Source: Acidobacteriaceae bacterium (GTDB lineage Bacteria > Acidobacteriota > Terriglobia > Terriglobales > Acidobacteriaceae). Taken from it: DNA of 64,000 nucleotides. The notes beneath the pieces are model-generated. The model was not told where the DNA came from, made no database searches, and saw only the letters and a list, made by a program, of their open reading frames with translations. The DNA is taken from the NCBI GenBank assembly GCA_003151335.1, contig PLXE01000071.1, forward strand, positions 1 to 64,000, read 5' to 3'. Below, piece after piece: positions 13,566-62,251 of the stretch. Both the position numbers and the translations under genes were made by a program. Every line of letters starts with the position of its first letter. Within the stretch, counting starts at the first letter, position 1.

Positions 13566-14273
13566 TTAACGGTTCAGTTTGCGGCGAATCACTCCGAATG
13601 CCCCAACTACCCCAGTGCCGAGCAGCAACAGGGAGCTGGGCTCGGGAGTGCCGGGGCCCGCTGTGCCTTGGATATCGAAGGCCCCAAGCGGGTTCCCCGT
13701 GCCATTGCTGTTCCAGACGCAACCGGTCCCGCCACCGTCCTGGCATCCGCTGGTGGCATATAGATCCAGACCGTTTACGCCCTGGCTGTTCCAGTTCCAT
13801 GCTTCCCAAGTGGTACTGGAGCCACTCATCGGACCGAGGAGCATGAAATACGACTGTCCGCCGGTCAGCGTGACTCCACTAATGCCAGTGACGGTAACCA
13901 GGCCGCAGCAGCCTCCGAAAGTTTGGCTGCTCGACAGGTTACCCCAATAGGCGCCACCCACCTCGGTTCCCGGGAGACCAGCGTTGTCGGTCCAAATGCT
14001 GGCGAAGAACGAGTTGGTGCCCGTCACGTATCCTACGCCGAGGTCAAAGGACGTGACGCTGAAGTTGCCACTGCCACCAACCGTAAAAAGGTTGGCACCG
14101 GTAAAGCTAGTGCCAACGAATCCGCTTCCGGAGATCGTCCACCCGGTCCCGCCTTGGTAGACGTTCCCCGGGGGGCCGAGATCGCTGAAGAGTGTATCCG
14201 CCATCGCTGGAAGACTGCTCACGCAGAGGGCGAGAGTCAACAAGCATAACGACCATCCAAGTTTTTTGTTCAA
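13566..14273 (-). CDS. PEP-CTERM sorting domain protein (copy 1)
   Basis: The 235-residue secreted protein starts at TTG 14273, with GGAGGA 6 bases upstream. The paralogue at 55154 has the same start arrangement. The export signal MNKKLGWSLCLLTLALCVSSLPAMA is followed by a Gly/Ser/Thr-rich beta-type region. It ends with TPEPSSLLLLGTGVVGAFGVIRRKLNR, a canonical PEP-CTERM tail (PEP, hydrophobic helix, Arg cluster) that exosortase systems process. The tail, the signal and much of the body match the second copy. Surface or exopolysaccharide-linked localisation is expected; the function is unknown. No exosortase gene is in this window. Confidence 0.85.
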   Translation of the reverse strand: MNKKLGWSLCLLTLALCVSSLPAMADTLFSDLGPPGNVYQGGTGWTISGSGFVGTSFTGANLFTVGGSGNFSVTSFDLGVGYVTGTNSFFASIWTDNAGLPGTEVGGAYWGNLSSSQTFGGCCGLVTVTGISGVTLTGGQSYFMLLGPMSGSSTTWEAWNWNSQGVNGLDLYATSGCQDGGGTGCVWNSNGTGNPLGAFDIQGTAGPGTPEPSSLLLLGTGVVGAFGVIRRKLNR

Positions 14274-14280
14274 GTTTGTT

Positions 14281-14445
14281 CCTCCGTTCAGAGTCATGAC
14301 TCGCGAGGTTGAAGCTTTAACTCAAACGCTTACGGTGTTTACGGGTCCCGTGGCCGCGCCTAAAGCAGTTGAAGACGCACCCACCTTTGCAAAGGTGGGT
14401 CTGTTCAGGGCCTTTAGCCGGATGGACAAACCCAACCAACTAAAG
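14281..14445 (-). promoter_or_regulatory. Conserved 5' leader of PEP-CTERM copy 1
   Basis: The block just before the gene aligns with the leader of copy 2: both have AACACCG(T/C)AAG, then GAGT, AAAG.TTCAA, CTCGCGA.TCA and GACTCT before GGAGG. A perfect CCCACCTTT/AAAGGTGGG hairpin (14381-14400) lies further upstream. A GCGTCTT word is also shared. The conservation outside the coding region suggests an RNA control element. Confidence 0.55.
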
Positions 14446-14466
14446 TGTTGCAATTTTGCTTCCGCT
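14446..14466 (-). promoter_or_regulatory. Putative sigma-54-type promoter of PEP-CTERM copy 1
   Basis: On the minus strand the site reads AGCGGAAGCAAAATTGCAAC then A. It has GG, a 10-base gap and GC, with TTGCA around the -12 position. Copy 2 has the same site with 4 differences in 21 bases. PEP-CTERM genes in other bacteria are known to be sigma-54 dependent through PrsR, which supports the reading. Confidence 0.5.
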
Positions 14467-14836
14467 GCAAACTATTGAAAAAATAAGAGATTGGCTAGCG
14501 GCAGGTGCAACAGATTGCACCAGAGTGCCGGATTACTTCCCACTCCAGGGAGCAGGTACACCGTCGGTCAGAATTCTTCACGTCCCCAAGCCTGCGCGCG
14601 AGCAACACAAGAACCGGGATGGCGGAAAACTACCGCACGGGGTTCATCTGGGAGCATTTCATGAAGAACCACGAAGCGCGGCAGGCTATGAAGTTGGTGG
14701 GATTCCGCCCGTCAGCCCCAGCCGCGACAGGCAAATAGAGCAGTGGCGGCGCACCAAGGATGTGCCAGCAGGAAACGAAACCGCTTCAGTTCCCGCTGGC
14801 ATACTGGTGATGCTTTGTCGCCCCCGACGCCAATAG
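14467..14836. other. Gene-free stretch between the PEP-CTERM promoter and the Ig-repeat lipoprotein gene
   Basis: I see no convincing gene. Short open frames have no family resemblance or ribosome site. The region could hold an activator site for the promoter at 14446-14466, but no clear palindrome was found. Confidence 0.4.
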
Positions 14837-17710
14837 CTAATTCGCTGCCTTCCCAATACTGAAAGTGGACAAGACCGGATTCGTGTCGGTCGAAAGAATG
14901 ACGATCCGGGTCGGCGAAATGACAAACAGGATGCCCTGCAGCGTCCCGCCCGGGTTCGATTCGACGAGGGCCCGGCCAGTAGCGTCAACCTGGTAGGTGA
15001 CAGCAAACTGATGAGTCTGCGGACCACCGGGGCCGCTGCTATCTTGCGAGACGTTGATGTTGCCATTCCCGTCGGAGAACAGCCAGTCAACCTGATTGGT
15101 TACCGCCGGCAGGGCTGGCAGAACCGAGCCTCCCACATAAGCGCCCAGGACCGAAACGTTGTTGAGGGGCACGCCCGACGTACCTGCCACTTGCGGCGCC
15201 AGCACTCCGGATGTGACATTCCCATCGCTGCCAACCAGGAACGCCTGGTTCTGGCTCACCAGGTACAGGACAAGCGGGGTACCGCCGAAGCCGTTCAAGA
15301 TTACTCGTCCATTCAGCGGGTTAACTTTGTATTGGCCGCCAGCGATCTGCTGCTGGGCCAGCGTCCCACCCGTGTTCTGGTCAAACAATAGGGTGGCGTT
15401 GCCGAAACCATTTCCGTCGGTAGTGCCGTCGCCGGTGAAAGACCCGGCAACCCCAATCGCTTCCGGGCTCCCGCCATTGGGATTGACCGCGTTGGTTTGG
15501 ACAACGCTTACCCCTCTCAAGGCTACGTTGGTGAAGCCCGCGCCTTGCGAAGTCCCTTTGAGTACCGACGCCAGCGTCAGAGGAGAGGTATCCGATATCT
15601 GGTCGATGCTGACCTGAATCATCTCCCCGGAAGACACCAGGTAGTAGCTGAAGTTTTGCGCTTGGCCGCTATTAATGCGCAGGCTGGCCGTGCCCCGGCC
15701 GGTGCTGGGATCGGGCGCAGCGTACGCGCCGCCCAAGATAGCGGCTGGAACCACTATGCCCCCGTCATTGGTGTCGGTTACGCCCTTCGTCAAAGTTCCG
15801 GAGGCATTGGTCTGGAACGTTCCAGCGCTGGCAAACCGATTGCCTGCCATGTCAACTCCGCTCGAGCCGAAGGTAAAATTACCGCCAGTCAGCGAAACAA
15901 TCGTTTGCCGCTTAAGCGCACCGGAAGCATACTCCTGCGGATTATTAGGGTCGCTCTGAATGAGCGTGCCCGCGCCAGTGCTGTCCACCGCTACCGCCAG
16001 AACGAGGACCGGACCTTGGGTGTCGTTGAAGGTCATCGTGCCCAAGCCATCCGCTGTGATCGAGTAGGTCCCGGTGAAGGACAGGCCGATCACCGGAGGG
16101 GCGCCGGCCCTATTCGCGTCGAGCAAGCCATTACTGATTGACCCAGTTCCGTCAGCCGTGAATCGGCCGGCCGCGACCGCTGGCGTTCCGTTGTTGTAGC
16201 CGCTGAACGAGAAGGCGTAATCGCCAGTCAGGACCGCATTGGTGAGGGCAGGGTTGATGTTGAGTGCAAAAGGCGGCGAGAAGACGATGGCCGGTGGTGA
16301 AGCCGAATCCTGCACCTGAAATTCGACGGAGTCACCGCCGCTCGTAGTCGGCGTTCCCGAGATCACCCCGGTGCTGGGGTTGAGAGTTAAACCGTTGGGC
16401 AAGGTCCCAAACCGCAGCGACCAAGTGTAGGGTGGAGTTCCGCCGGCAGCACTCATCGCGACGCTGTAGGGCACCGACTGTGTGCCCGTGGGCACCGCGG
16501 CGGTCGTAATCACCAAGGGGCCGGAATTGATGGCCAGCGTCAAGCCGGAAGAAGAGGCCGTATTCCCCAGGGTGTCGGTCACCTGTGCGGTGATGGGGAA
16601 GGTACCACTGCGGCCGGTGGGCGTTCCCGAAATTATGCCGGTGCCGCTCAGCGTCAAGCCCGCGGGCAACGGTCCCGAGGTAAGACTCCAGGAGTATGGC
16701 GGAACTCCGCCGGTGGCGGCCAACGAATTTGAGTAGCGGACGCCTTGCGTGCCCGCCGGCAACGAACTTGTCGTGACCTGGAGCTGCGGTGTCGGGTTGA
16801 TGGTGATGGTGAAGTCCCCGGTCGCCGTCTGGGGAGTACTTTCCGAGTCGGTCACTTGCACCCTGATCGGATAGCTGCCGGTTGTTGTAGGCGTTCCCGA
16901 TATCACTCCGGTGGTAGTAGTCAGAGACAATCCGGGCGGCAAGGGCCCAGAGTCAGAGGTCAGGCTCCAGGTGTAGGGCGCCAGTCCGCCCGTGGCAATT
17001 AGCTGCGTGTCGTAGAAGATGGCCACATTGCCATCAGGTAGGGAAGTGTTGGTGATGGTGACAAACCCAAGGATGGAGATACTCAACGTGCCAGAGGATC
17101 CGGTGGCAGGGGGGATCTCCGCATCAGCCACCTGGAGGGTGAACGTCGAGGTCCCCAGCAGAGTAGGCGTACCGGAAATCGTGGCGGTGCTGTCGGCGTT
17201 CGTAGTGAGGGTGAGTCCAGGCGGCAGAGAACCGCTGCTGACGCTCCACGTATAAGGCAATACTCCGCCGGTCGCCGATAAGTTTGCGCTGTAGGGTAAC
17301 GTTACCTGGCCTCCCGGCAGCGTGGGGGGCGTGATCGATACCGCACCGCGGATGTTGATGCTCAGGGCCTTGCTCCCGGTGAGGGACTTGGCGTCCGTTA
17401 CCTGCACGGTGAAGCTGGCATTCACAATCGTGGTCGGGGTTCCAGTGATTGCCCCGGTATCGGCGTTCAAGCTCAATCCGGTGGGCAAATTCCCCGACGT
17501 GATGCTCCACGTGAAAGGTGACGTTCCGGTTCCCCGGGTCACATGCACGGTGGCGTTGTAGGGAACATTGACCGCGCCACTGGGCAAACTCGATTCAAAG
17601 ATCACCGGCGAACCCGCTGGGGCGGGCTTGGAGTGGCCACCGCAAGCCGCTAGGAACACGCAAAGAATAAGTGCCAACCCTAATGCTGCAACTGCCTTAC
17701 CTGATGCCAT
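14837..17710 (-). CDS. Large secreted lipoprotein with putative Ig (He_PIG-like) repeats
   Basis: ATG 17710 follows AAGGAG at 5 bases, and the product (957 residues) opens with a lipoprotein signal ending LAAC. The N-terminal half has five tandem Ig-like repeats of about 90 residues, each with LPxGxxxxxYxxxL, GGxxPYTWSL and GTPT signatures. The C-terminal half carries repeats of the type GxYAFxFSG..AGRFTADGTGSI..GxxDxN, with about 120-130 residues each. Such proteins are common and numerous in Acidobacteriota and are thought to be surface adhesion or binding proteins. No enzyme domain is visible. The frame continues upstream to 17914, but that part lacks a signal peptide. Confidence 0.82.
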   Translation of the reverse strand: MASGKAVAALGLALILCVFLAACGGHSKPAPAGSPVIFESSLPSGAVNVPYNATVHVTRGTGTSPFTWSITSGNLPTGLSLNADTGAITGTPTTIVNASFTVQVTDAKSLTGSKALSINIRGAVSITPPTLPGGQVTLPYSANLSATGGVLPYTWSVSSGSLPPGLTLTTNADSTATISGTPTLLGTSTFTLQVADAEIPPATGSSGTLSISILGFVTITNTSLPDGNVAIFYDTQLIATGGLAPYTWSLTSDSGPLPPGLSLTTTTGVISGTPTTTGSYPIRVQVTDSESTPQTATGDFTITINPTPQLQVTTSSLPAGTQGVRYSNSLAATGGVPPYSWSLTSGPLPAGLTLSGTGIISGTPTGRSGTFPITAQVTDTLGNTASSSGLTLAINSGPLVITTAAVPTGTQSVPYSVAMSAAGGTPPYTWSLRFGTLPNGLTLNPSTGVISGTPTTSGGDSVEFQVQDSASPPAIVFSPPFALNINPALTNAVLTGDYAFSFSGYNNGTPAVAAGRFTADGTGSISNGLLDANRAGAPPVIGLSFTGTYSITADGLGTMTFNDTQGPVLVLAVAVDSTGAGTLIQSDPNNPQEYASGALKRQTIVSLTGGNFTFGSSGVDMAGNRFASAGTFQTNASGTLTKGVTDTNDGGIVVPAAILGGAYAAPDPSTGRGTASLRINSGQAQNFSYYLVSSGEMIQVSIDQISDTSPLTLASVLKGTSQGAGFTNVALRGVSVVQTNAVNPNGGSPEAIGVAGSFTGDGTTDGNGFGNATLLFDQNTGGTLAQQQIAGGQYKVNPLNGRVILNGFGGTPLVLYLVSQNQAFLVGSDGNVTSGVLAPQVAGTSGVPLNNVSVLGAYVGGSVLPALPAVTNQVDWLFSDGNGNINVSQDSSGPGGPQTHQFAVTYQVDATGRALVESNPGGTLQGILFVISPTRIVILSTDTNPVLSTFSIGKAAN

Positions 17711-17971
17711 CGGATCTCCTTGTGGGCCTGCTATTGCGTGCTCCGGCCAACTCCCATCACAGAAGCCGGCTGGCATTCTACACGTTGGATCGGGAAAAGC
17801 CGGAAGTGTAGTGTCAGAGACCTGCTTGCGTACACCACTCTTCGCCCAACCCAGTTGCAGCCCCGCCGGGCGACGCTTCAGTGAAAAGAGTTGTGGCCCA
17901 TGGTAACTCCGCAAGGCCTATGTGCGCGAGGGGAAAGTTTGAAGCTTGGTTGGACTAAGCAAAGGCGTAGG

Positions 17972-49204: not shown

Positions 49205-49368
49205 TAGGGGCTAAAGAGCCTGTGTGCGGACTCGTTTTGAGTTGGCGCGGTCGAACGATTGCGCAAAATCCAGCCCCGCAGGGGCGGAATTGCTTTTAGC
49301 CCAGGGCGTAAGCCCTGGGTAACGTGCAAAAAATCGGCGAGTCCCTTCAGGGACGGCACAAATTCCAG
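49205..49368 (+). repeat. Host palindromic repeat, uninterrupted copy
   Basis: CTCGTTTTGAGTTGGCGCGG and GCGCAAAATCCAG are followed by CCCCGCAGGGGCGGAATTG, the hairpin GCCCAGGGCGTAAGCCCTGG and GAGTCCCTTCAGGGACGGCA. It shows the host repeat without the 43-bp unit in its loops. It fills the space between yajC and tgt. Confidence 0.75.
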
Positions 49369-54770: not shown

Positions 54771-54943
54771 TGGCAATCGTGGACGTCGACCGCAATGAAC
54801 ATTGGTGAAGGTGGCAACCTGACCCTTCCAGGAGGAGAGCAAACCTGGCGCCAATCCCAGGGAACGGAGCATACAGTCTGGCCACTCAAGTGCAAGTGTT
54901 TGCACCCTCGATAGTTTCGGTCCCATATTTTCCAACGAGTTAG

Positions 54944-54964
54944 AGCGGAGACATAATTGCAACA
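54944..54964 (+). promoter_or_regulatory. Putative sigma-54-type promoter of PEP-CTERM copy 2
   Basis: AGCGGAGACATAATTGCAAC then A: GG, ten bases, GC. It matches the site of copy 1 at 17 of 21 positions. Confidence 0.5.
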
Positions 54965-55153
54965 GTACCCCTAAGGTCTGTCTCGGAATGCCGCAGGTTC
55001 TGTGTTGCATGGCATGTTCGGGCGGGCCCGGCAACGAGCGTCTTGCAGGTTCGAACCCGCTCGTTGAGCAATACCGGCCCCTGAACACCGCAAGGTGTTC
55101 GAGTAAAGTTTCAATCTCGCGAATCAAGACTCTCAACCGCGGAGGATACAAAC
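54965..55153 (+). promoter_or_regulatory. Conserved 5' leader of PEP-CTERM copy 2
   Basis: It contains a 9-bp hairpin (CAACGAGCG with CGCTCGTTG, 55032-55066) and a perfect GAACACC-GCAA-GGTGTTC tetraloop hairpin (55083-55100). The last 65 bases align with the leader of copy 1. Confidence 0.55.
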
Positions 55154-55804
55154 TTGAACAAGAAATTTGGATGGATGTTATGTTTGCTGGCTCTGGCTGT
55201 ATGTGCCAGTAGTTTGCCAGCAATGGCTGACACTGCTTACAATAATACGCTTCCCAACCCCTCCAATTGCTGCTCTGGCTGGACCATAGGCGGTTCGGGC
55301 TCCCTTGTCGGACTCGTCGAGGACGCTCAGTTGTTCACGTCATTGGCGACCGGCACGGTCAGCCAGATTTCCATAGATATAGGCTGGGCGGCGGGCGACA
55401 ACGGGGCCTTTGTAGGTATTTACACCGACAATGCTGGAGCGCCGGGAACGCTCATTGGGAGCTTGATGACTCTCCCTCCAGCCCTAACTTTCGGAACATC
55501 CTGTCCAGCTTGTGAGCTGAGTGTGTTCGGTAGTGGAGGTACTATTACCGCCGGACAACAGTATTTTGTTGTAGTCACGGCCGACAGCAGCACTTGGGAC
55601 GCCTGGAATCAGAATGGAAACGGCATCCTTGGACAGCTTGATCAAAACACAGGCAGCGGCTGGAACCAGTTTGGAGGCCAACTCTTGGGCGGCATGGCCG
55701 TATATACCGGTAGCAGCACGACCCCGGAGCCGAGCTCCCTATTGTTGCTGGGCACCGGATTGGTGGGAGCATTCGGCGTTATTCGCCGCAAGTTGAATCG
55801 CTAA
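55154..55804 (+). CDS. PEP-CTERM sorting domain protein (copy 2)
   Basis: The 216-residue secreted protein begins at TTG 55154 after GGAGG, as in copy 1. Its signal MNKKFGWMLCLLALAVCASSLPAMA is nearly that of copy 1, and the tail TPEPSSLLLLGTGLVGAFGVIRRKLNR differs at one position. The body has the same FXGIYTDNAGXPGT and TWDAWNQN-type segments with Gly/Ser-rich stretches. Two CC pairs (NCCSGW, SCPAC) could form disulfides. It is expected at the cell surface after exosortase processing. The function is unknown. The gene is 41 kb from copy 1, with conserved control regions on both sides. Confidence 0.85.
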   Translation: MNKKFGWMLCLLALAVCASSLPAMADTAYNNTLPNPSNCCSGWTIGGSGSLVGLVEDAQLFTSLATGTVSQISIDIGWAAGDNGAFVGIYTDNAGAPGTLIGSLMTLPPALTFGTSCPACELSVFGSGGTITAGQQYFVVVTADSSTWDAWNQNGNGILGQLDQNTGSGWNQFGGQLLGGMAVYTGSSTTPEPSSLLLLGTGLVGAFGVIRRKLNR

Positions 55805-62138: not shown

Positions 62139-62251
62139 AATCCAGCCCCGCAGGGGCGAAAGAGTTTGGCCCAGCACGGAGCCGCAGGCGGAGTGCTGGG
62201 TAAAGTGGAAAGTAGATCCGAGTCCCTTAGGGACGGCACAGTTCTCACACA
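62139..62251 (+). repeat. Host palindromic repeat copy with a CCGCAGGCGG loop insert
   Basis: GAAATCCAGCCCCGCAGGGG, GGCCCAGCAC-GGAGCCGCAGG, CGGAGTGCTGGGTAAAG, and GAGTCCCTTAGGGACGGCAC. The loop insert differs from the 43-bp unit but occupies the same place. Confidence 0.7.

Follow-up and report, generated by a model that had tools for sequence, protein, structure and literature searches.

The PEP-CTERM genes of the window

The stretch of DNA analysed here (the window, 64,000 nucleotides) lies on contig C100 of an Acidobacteriaceae genome, G000, assembled in 121 contigs totalling 4.65 Mb, and carries two genes for PEP-CTERM proteins, referred to as copies 1 and 2. Their products score 25.3 and 27.7 bits, respectively, against PF07589 (cut-off 20.7), and TIGR02595 is also over its cut-off in both. 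Copy 1 shows 89-93% identity to three loci of palsa-labelled Acidobacteriaceae metagenome-assembled genomes. The exosortase of G000 is encoded on contig C91 (PF09721, 246.2 bits; TIGR02602, 191.1 bits against a cut-off of 105.55), with EpsI and PrsT adjoining it. The GGAGG sequence and TTG start that the initial annotation assigned to the two genes were found in both, and an in-frame ATG at position 14297 of copy 1 is not kept in copy 2. The features of both loci are as follows, with the predicted transcription starts placed at the usual distance from the -12 element.

13566-14273, minus strand: copy 1 gene, PEP-CTERM protein of 235 amino acids, TTG start
14281-14285, minus strand: copy 1 ribosome-binding site, GGAGG
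14324-14340, minus strand: copy 1 hairpin AAACACC-GTAA-GCGTTT, imperfect
14274-14368, minus strand: copy 1 proximal leader, conserved block
14369-14438, minus strand: copy 1 distal leader, no alignment with copy 2
Near 14438, minus strand: copy 1 predicted +1
14446-14466, minus strand: copy 1 sigma-54-like site, GG at 14463-14462 and GC at 14451-14450
14505-14520, minus strand: copy 1 palindrome GTGCAATCTGTTGCAC, predicted enhancer-binding-protein site
54890-54905, plus strand: copy 2 palindrome GTGCAAGTGTTTGCAC
54944-54964, plus strand: copy 2 sigma-54-like site, GG at 54947-54948 and GC at 54959-54960
Near 54972, plus strand: copy 2 predicted +1
54972-55058, plus strand: copy 2 distal leader
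55059-55153, plus strand: copy 2 proximal leader, conserved block
55083-55100, plus strand: copy 2 hairpin GAACACC-GCAA-GGTGTTC
55141-55145, plus strand: copy 2 ribosome-binding site, GGAGG
55154-55804, plus strand: copy 2 gene, PEP-CTERM protein of 216 amino acids, TTG start

The gene upstream of copy 1 (14837-17914, minus strand) encodes a protein of 1025 residues in which five stretches match the putative Ig domain PF05345. The window also contains two Acido-Lenti-1 RNAs (RF01687), at 49272-49319 and 62144-62200, both on the minus strand, with 47.5 and 41.5 bits against a gathering threshold of 37.

Upstream DNA shared by the two copies

Local alignment of the two upstream regions gave a score of 130; when the mononucleotides of one region were shuffled 200 times, the score never rose above 55. 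The conservation of about 180 nucleotides described in the initial annotation is largely real, but it is split into two blocks. The first runs from the palindrome to the GG-N10-GC site (52/75 positions identical between copies, 69%) and the second is the proximal leader of 95 nt (71/84 identical, 85%, with 22 gap positions), while the distal leader that separates them could not be aligned (5 aligned columns and 169 gaps). The GG-N10-GC site itself, AGCGGA..AATTGCAACA, is present in both copies as had been annotated, at 14446-14466 (minus strand) and 54944-54964 (plus strand). Copy 2 has a perfect AACACC hairpin, whereas its counterpart in copy 1 is one base short and contains an A.C mismatch. 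The palindrome at 14505-14520 and 54890-54905 fell outside the span covered by that annotation and was absent from it.

A very recent duplication of the whole gene, which had been put forward as an explanation that would undo the significance of this similarity, could be discarded, since the middle parts of the two proteins are identical at just 67 of 160 residues and the copy-1 and copy-2 leader types remain distinct in sister genomes.

A palindrome and sigma-54-like module across the genus

In copies 1 and 2 the palindrome GTGCAA-N4-TTGCAC is located 41-43 nt before the GG of the sigma-54-like site. Its core, TGCAA-N4-TTGCA, is kept in all nine loci of the genus that bear the proximal leader, 54-55 bp upstream of the CGG in the sigma-54-like site, and in both copies as well as in these nine loci the -24 GG and -12 GC are 10 nt apart. 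Both copies have CGGA as their -24 half, a weak version that departs from the consensus TGGC.

A search of nine genomes of the genus with GCAA-N4-TTGCA-N30..60-GG-N9-TGC, in which gaps were unrestricted between 30 and 60, returned 56 matches, compared to 6 with the reversed pattern. A same-strand PF07589 gene lay no more than 1.3 kb away in 23 of the 26 matches with a total length of 67-69 bp; for those of 78 bp a PEP-CTERM gene was present in two of four, and for all remaining lengths in none of 26 (Fisher's test of 67-69 bp against other lengths, 1.5e-11, the PEP-CTERM positions considered being those on contigs with a match to the pattern). A putative upstream activator site at a preferred and helically phased distance is thus observed, in the form of the 67-69 and 78 bp classes. 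As for the three exceptions in the 67-69 bp class, one (G090:C51) encodes a protein with the sequence TPEPRSIFLF that scores below the cut-off, another (G200:C379) encodes a PEP-CTERM protein homologue truncated at the contig end, and in the third (G203:C157) the module precedes another kind of gene. Register is also kept: shifting the -12 element by one base left 0, 0 and 1 matches in G000, G124 and G090, against 4, 4 and 3 in register.

Outside the genus, the pattern matched 25 times in 246 genomes of the order and its reverse 15 times, which is near chance, so within the order as sampled this exact module seems restricted to the genus. RpoN was over its cut-off in six of the nine genus genomes, including G000 (G000:C23, 363.5 bits in all, cut-off 277.35); G200 had only a fragment, and no RpoN was detected in G201 or G202. 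Taken together, the comparison among genomes supports well the proposal, already made in the initial annotation, of a common sigma-54-type regulator for both copies.

PEP-CTERM genes preceded by the module in this genome

Seventeen PEP-CTERM genes of G000 are over the cut-off and 16 of them could be tested (L006 was left out). A profile built from 21 sites of sister genomes identified the module before eight of the 16: L002, L004 (copy 2), L005, L007, L008 (copy 1), L012, L013 and L014. The same scan found no module before the other eight. In addition, L020, which is below the PEP-CTERM cut-off, bears the module. None of the training sites came from G000, although orthologous sites of sister genomes were included, and the shuffled controls were mononucleotide shuffles within 40-base blocks, 40 per region. 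The gap between palindrome and GG is 41-43 in seven of these nine module genes, 52 in L013 and 62 in L007. Since gaps in the profile scan were restricted to three ranges, near one, two and three turns, the scan alone is no proof of phasing, and the case for a preferred spacing rests on the unrestricted length analysis described above.

A kinase and response regulator as candidate regulatory pair

We consider it quite likely that the conserved upstream DNA is a sigma-54 module providing common control of around half of the PEP-CTERM genes, with the response regulator encoded on contig C106 as its activator. This protein, C106a (L280:11145-12539), is an enhancer-binding protein (EBP) with receiver, AAA+ and Fis-type helix-turn-helix domains, and its gene follows that of a histidine kinase (L280:12536-13693) in one operon, which heads an exopolysaccharide (EPS) locus. 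Back to back with this operon are genes for a PilZ protein, a second EBP devoid of receiver (C106b), an export protein and a chain-length determinant, beyond which, in G124, there are an ATPase, a tyrosine kinase and a sugar transferase. In NCBIfam the five EPS proteins there are best matched by XrtA/PEP-CTERM families, all below curated cut-offs.

The strongest pointer to the C106 regulator is the presence of the same module before what would be its own operon. An exact GCAA-N4-TTGC is followed there, after 51 nt (52 in G201), by GG-N8-TTGC in 7/7 genomes examined, the locus having been placed from profile scores in G201, G202 and G204 and left unplaced in G200. The arrangement is one helical turn longer than the 67-69 bp class of PEP-CTERM genes. 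As the kinase/EBP operon carries the same module, it is probably autoregulated. When gaps of 36-64 were searched in 60 stretches around EBP genes (145,854 bases, most of the stretches ending some 600 bases beyond the match), the module was located at the C106 locus and at one other place (gap 39).

It is clearly less probable, though worth weighing, that a different EBP, either C106b or one outside the compared set, reads the palindrome and that the C106 kinase and response regulator are merely targets of the regulon. C106b, encoded in the divergent operon, has a similar helix-turn-helix at its end, and a PEP-CTERM gene of G205 keeps the module without the C106 pair. Against this stands the fact that the module points at the kinase/response-regulator operon, exactly and in all seven genomes, as does the distribution of orthologues. 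Eight of the 11 PrsR-like EBPs of G000 have an orthologue in G205 (72-92% identity). Of the remaining three, the C52 EBP was matched only in G124, whereas the C106 pair is present in the other genomes compared (G090, G124 and G203). This comparison covered the 60 stretches, a part of the PrsR-like matches, and set the EBPs of G000 against those of G090, G124, G203 and G205, with the C106b orthologue of G203 coming from a separate look. Neither C106 EBP was among the eight PrsR-like matches of G205, an assembly that is 93% complete. However, one of the nine PEP-CTERM loci of G205 has an exact module directly before the gene, with a gap of 62, like L007 of G000. Because of this gene, the orthologue profile counts as support but no longer as proof of the regulator: either the C106 locus is missing from the G205 assembly or another EBP reads the site there. 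Further points against the main reading are the eight testable G000 genes that have no module, the match at G203:C157, the CGGA of the -24 half, the sub-cut-off scores of the EPS families and the genus genomes in which RpoN was missing or fragmentary.

With C106a as the likely activator, we infer the following sequence of events. A signal would act on the C106 kinase, and the activated NtrC-type EBP would bind the GCAA-N4-TTGC palindromes. The -24/-12 site lies 41-43 nt downstream of the palindrome, or one or two helical turns further; the bound EBP would turn on RpoN polymerase, and secreted matrix proteins would be made together with polysaccharide. Since the module precedes both copies, many other PEP-CTERM genes and the likely regulator, the two copies are probably switched on along with the sugar matrix of the cell. 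Having a site, a set of target genes and a candidate regulator opens the regulation of matrix proteins in uncultured soil bacteria to tests in vitro.

Relation to known systems

The best reading of these data is a sigma-54 regulon run by a two-component system that is PrsR-like yet distinct. PrsR itself, whose control of PEP-CTERM genes in other bacteria had been invoked for the two copies, is probably not the regulator: none of the 11 PrsR-like matches in G000 reached the cut-off of TIGR02915 (best, 439.8 against 502.6 bits). The best of them, on contig C31, adjoins the gene of an HmcC-like membrane protein, and the C106 candidate regulator scores 350.1 against the 502.6 bits of the PrsR model. 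PrsK (TIGR02916) was not among the best 25 families listed for the C106 kinase. PrsR was over its cut-off in one of the nine genus genomes (G203:C267). At that place, L102, there is a second exosortase locus whose best match is XrtC, below cut-off, with PrsK, PrsR and PrsT over theirs.

The PrsK/PrsR regulon of PEP-CTERM genes in Proteobacteria was outlined by Haft et al. (2006; PMC1569441). In the parts of that account considered here, a 17-nt motif 1, the predicted activator site, is followed at a mean distance of 62.8 nt (32-92) by a -24/-12 sigma-54 motif; the motifs are located upstream of single PEP-CTERM genes (99/167) and are confined to Proteobacteria among the species discussed, and more regulators and motifs were expected. 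Our system resembles it in having an activator site and then a -24/-12 element, and an NtrC-type response regulator with a kinase near exopolysaccharide genes. It differs from the proteobacterial, TTTACA-based arrangement as far as described in those parts, in that the palindrome is GCAA-N4-TTGC, the distance is 41-43 nt, the host is one of the Acidobacteriaceae and the candidate regulator falls short of the PrsR cut-off. The TTTACA of motif 1 was absent before the sigma-54 site in the two copies and the found sites compared, where GCAA-N4-TTGC(A) occurs instead. This Acidobacteriaceae genus would thus follow the sigma-54 logic contained in the 2006 PEP-CTERM account with another palindrome and another candidate two-component system at the EPS locus.

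Other systems show partial likeness in the sections of the respective reports taken into account. DVUA0057 of Desulfovibrio vulgaris is also a sigma-54-dependent response regulator encoded in an EPS operon, and DAP-chip showed enrichment of its predicted PEP-CTERM targets (Rajeev et al., 2011; PMC3333781); it belongs, however, to another phylum and its operon is plasmid-borne, and its sites are not comparable with ours because its binding motif was not validated in those sections. The PEP-CTERM gene pepA of Aquincola tertiaricarbonis is RpoN-dependent, with a mapped start, a -24/-12 element and an enhancer-like sequence upstream (PMC9850573), although in that proteobacterium the element is a canonical TGGCAC and PrsK-PrsR is present. 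In strain GP59 RNA leaders flank such genes too, in that case c-di-GMP riboswitches beside PEP-CTERM genes (PMC12530212), whereas in our window there are no Rfam riboswitch matches. Within the portions of the open literature consulted, subscription papers and preprints lying outside this scope, we found no description of this palindrome or regulator.

Conservation and possible role of the proximal leader

The proximal leader is more conserved than the fourfold sites of the genes it precedes. Fisher's test of leader identity against identity at fourfold sites was done for three pairs: copies 1 and 2 (71/84, 85%, versus 23/62, 37%; p 3.6e-9), copy 1 of G000 and G124 (85/92 versus 86/124; 3.3e-5), and copy 2 of G000 and G201 (93/95 versus 53/83; 9.0e-10). 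Leader identity exceeded that of fourfold sites in the 12 pairs compared, the smallest margin being the 4 points between G000 copy 2 and G203a (78/91, 86%, versus 85/104, 82%). The constraint does not simply extend into the gene, since residues of the signal peptide common to both copies use the same codon in only 8 of 19 cases.

The leader was located at nine places in five genomes of the genus, with TTG as the start codon in seven of these homologues and GTG in two; beyond the genus there was one short match, in G009 (33 query bases, E 0.001). A third leader copy in G124 precedes a protein with a different mature part. Four more homologous genes (one in G090, three in G204) have the module, and their leaders are similar in short pieces only. 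Within G000 the leader core appears at only two places, so the regulon as a whole does not share it. Judging by its position, the proximal leader most likely serves the translation of one gene subfamily rather than common control.

The initial annotation had also raised the idea of an RNA switch. In its most explicit form, translation would be gated by a switch or thermometer in which the AACACC hairpin competes on the same strand with an anti-start helix (GUUCGAGU and ACUUGAAC over the UUG). The strand GGUGUUCGAGU would either close a GNRA-type hairpin with GAACACC or pair with ACUUGAAC across the UUG, as a translational switch with a second input on top of the sigma-54 module. If this were true, the start-codon region would mimic the 5' arm of the hairpin and the synthesis of matrix proteins would be gated by that second input. 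We regard such a mechanism as improbable. The conservation above fourfold sites in 12/12 pairs (one by 4 points) is in line with it, as are a hairpin in which 95.5% of cells are paired and one of eight pairs changed on both sides, the pairing of the start region in the consensus fold of nine leaders, and double changes within subtypes at 5/55 and 4/67 predicted pairs, figures that carry no control. Yet the covariation score of the hairpin was matched by 84 of 500 shuffles, and in the anti-start helix 0/9 pairs had changed on both sides, with measures not above those of shuffles; the fold and covariation analysis that had been suggested, made on few sequences, gave one compensatory pair for the hairpin and none for the anti-start helix. 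No common fold emerged either: the two leader subtypes fold differently, and 13 leaders gave no consensus pair. Folding z-scores were ordinary (-1.78 and -1.08), with 12/200 and 30/200 shuffles folding as well, and no Rfam family was over its gathering threshold at either leader, the best for copy 1 being a miRNA family with 20.9 against 90 bits. Furthermore, the two places of the leader core in G000 correspond to two of its nine module-bearing genes. The suggestion of an RNA switch is therefore unsupported, though not disproved, in spite of the conservation of the leader.

That the shared upstream DNA is a functionless remnant of gene duplication is scarcely credible, for while the restriction of the leader to one gene subfamily of one genus would be compatible with it, the contrast between leader (71/84) and fourfold sites (23/62) and the occurrence of the module, at fixed spacing, before PEP-CTERM genes of unlike sequence argue against it.

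Both distal leaders contain inverted repeats. That of copy 2 includes a long one, CAACGAGCG..CGCTCGTTG (55028-55069, plus strand), which is absent from copy 1 and in which GGTTCGAACCC resembles a tRNA T arm. In copy 1 there is a perfect 22-nt inverted repeat, ACCCACCTTTGCAAAGGTGGGT (14381-14406, minus strand), which is not intact in orthologues.

Two loci of sister genomes differ in composition. The copy 1 orthologue L163 (G201:C124:8798-9403) has no palindrome, promoter, leader or signal peptide, and the flank joins the mature part directly. In L041 (G124:C3) the module, the leader, the start of the signal peptide and the PEP-CTERM end are alike and the middle part is different, a pattern that is one of swapping of mature domains between shared ends.
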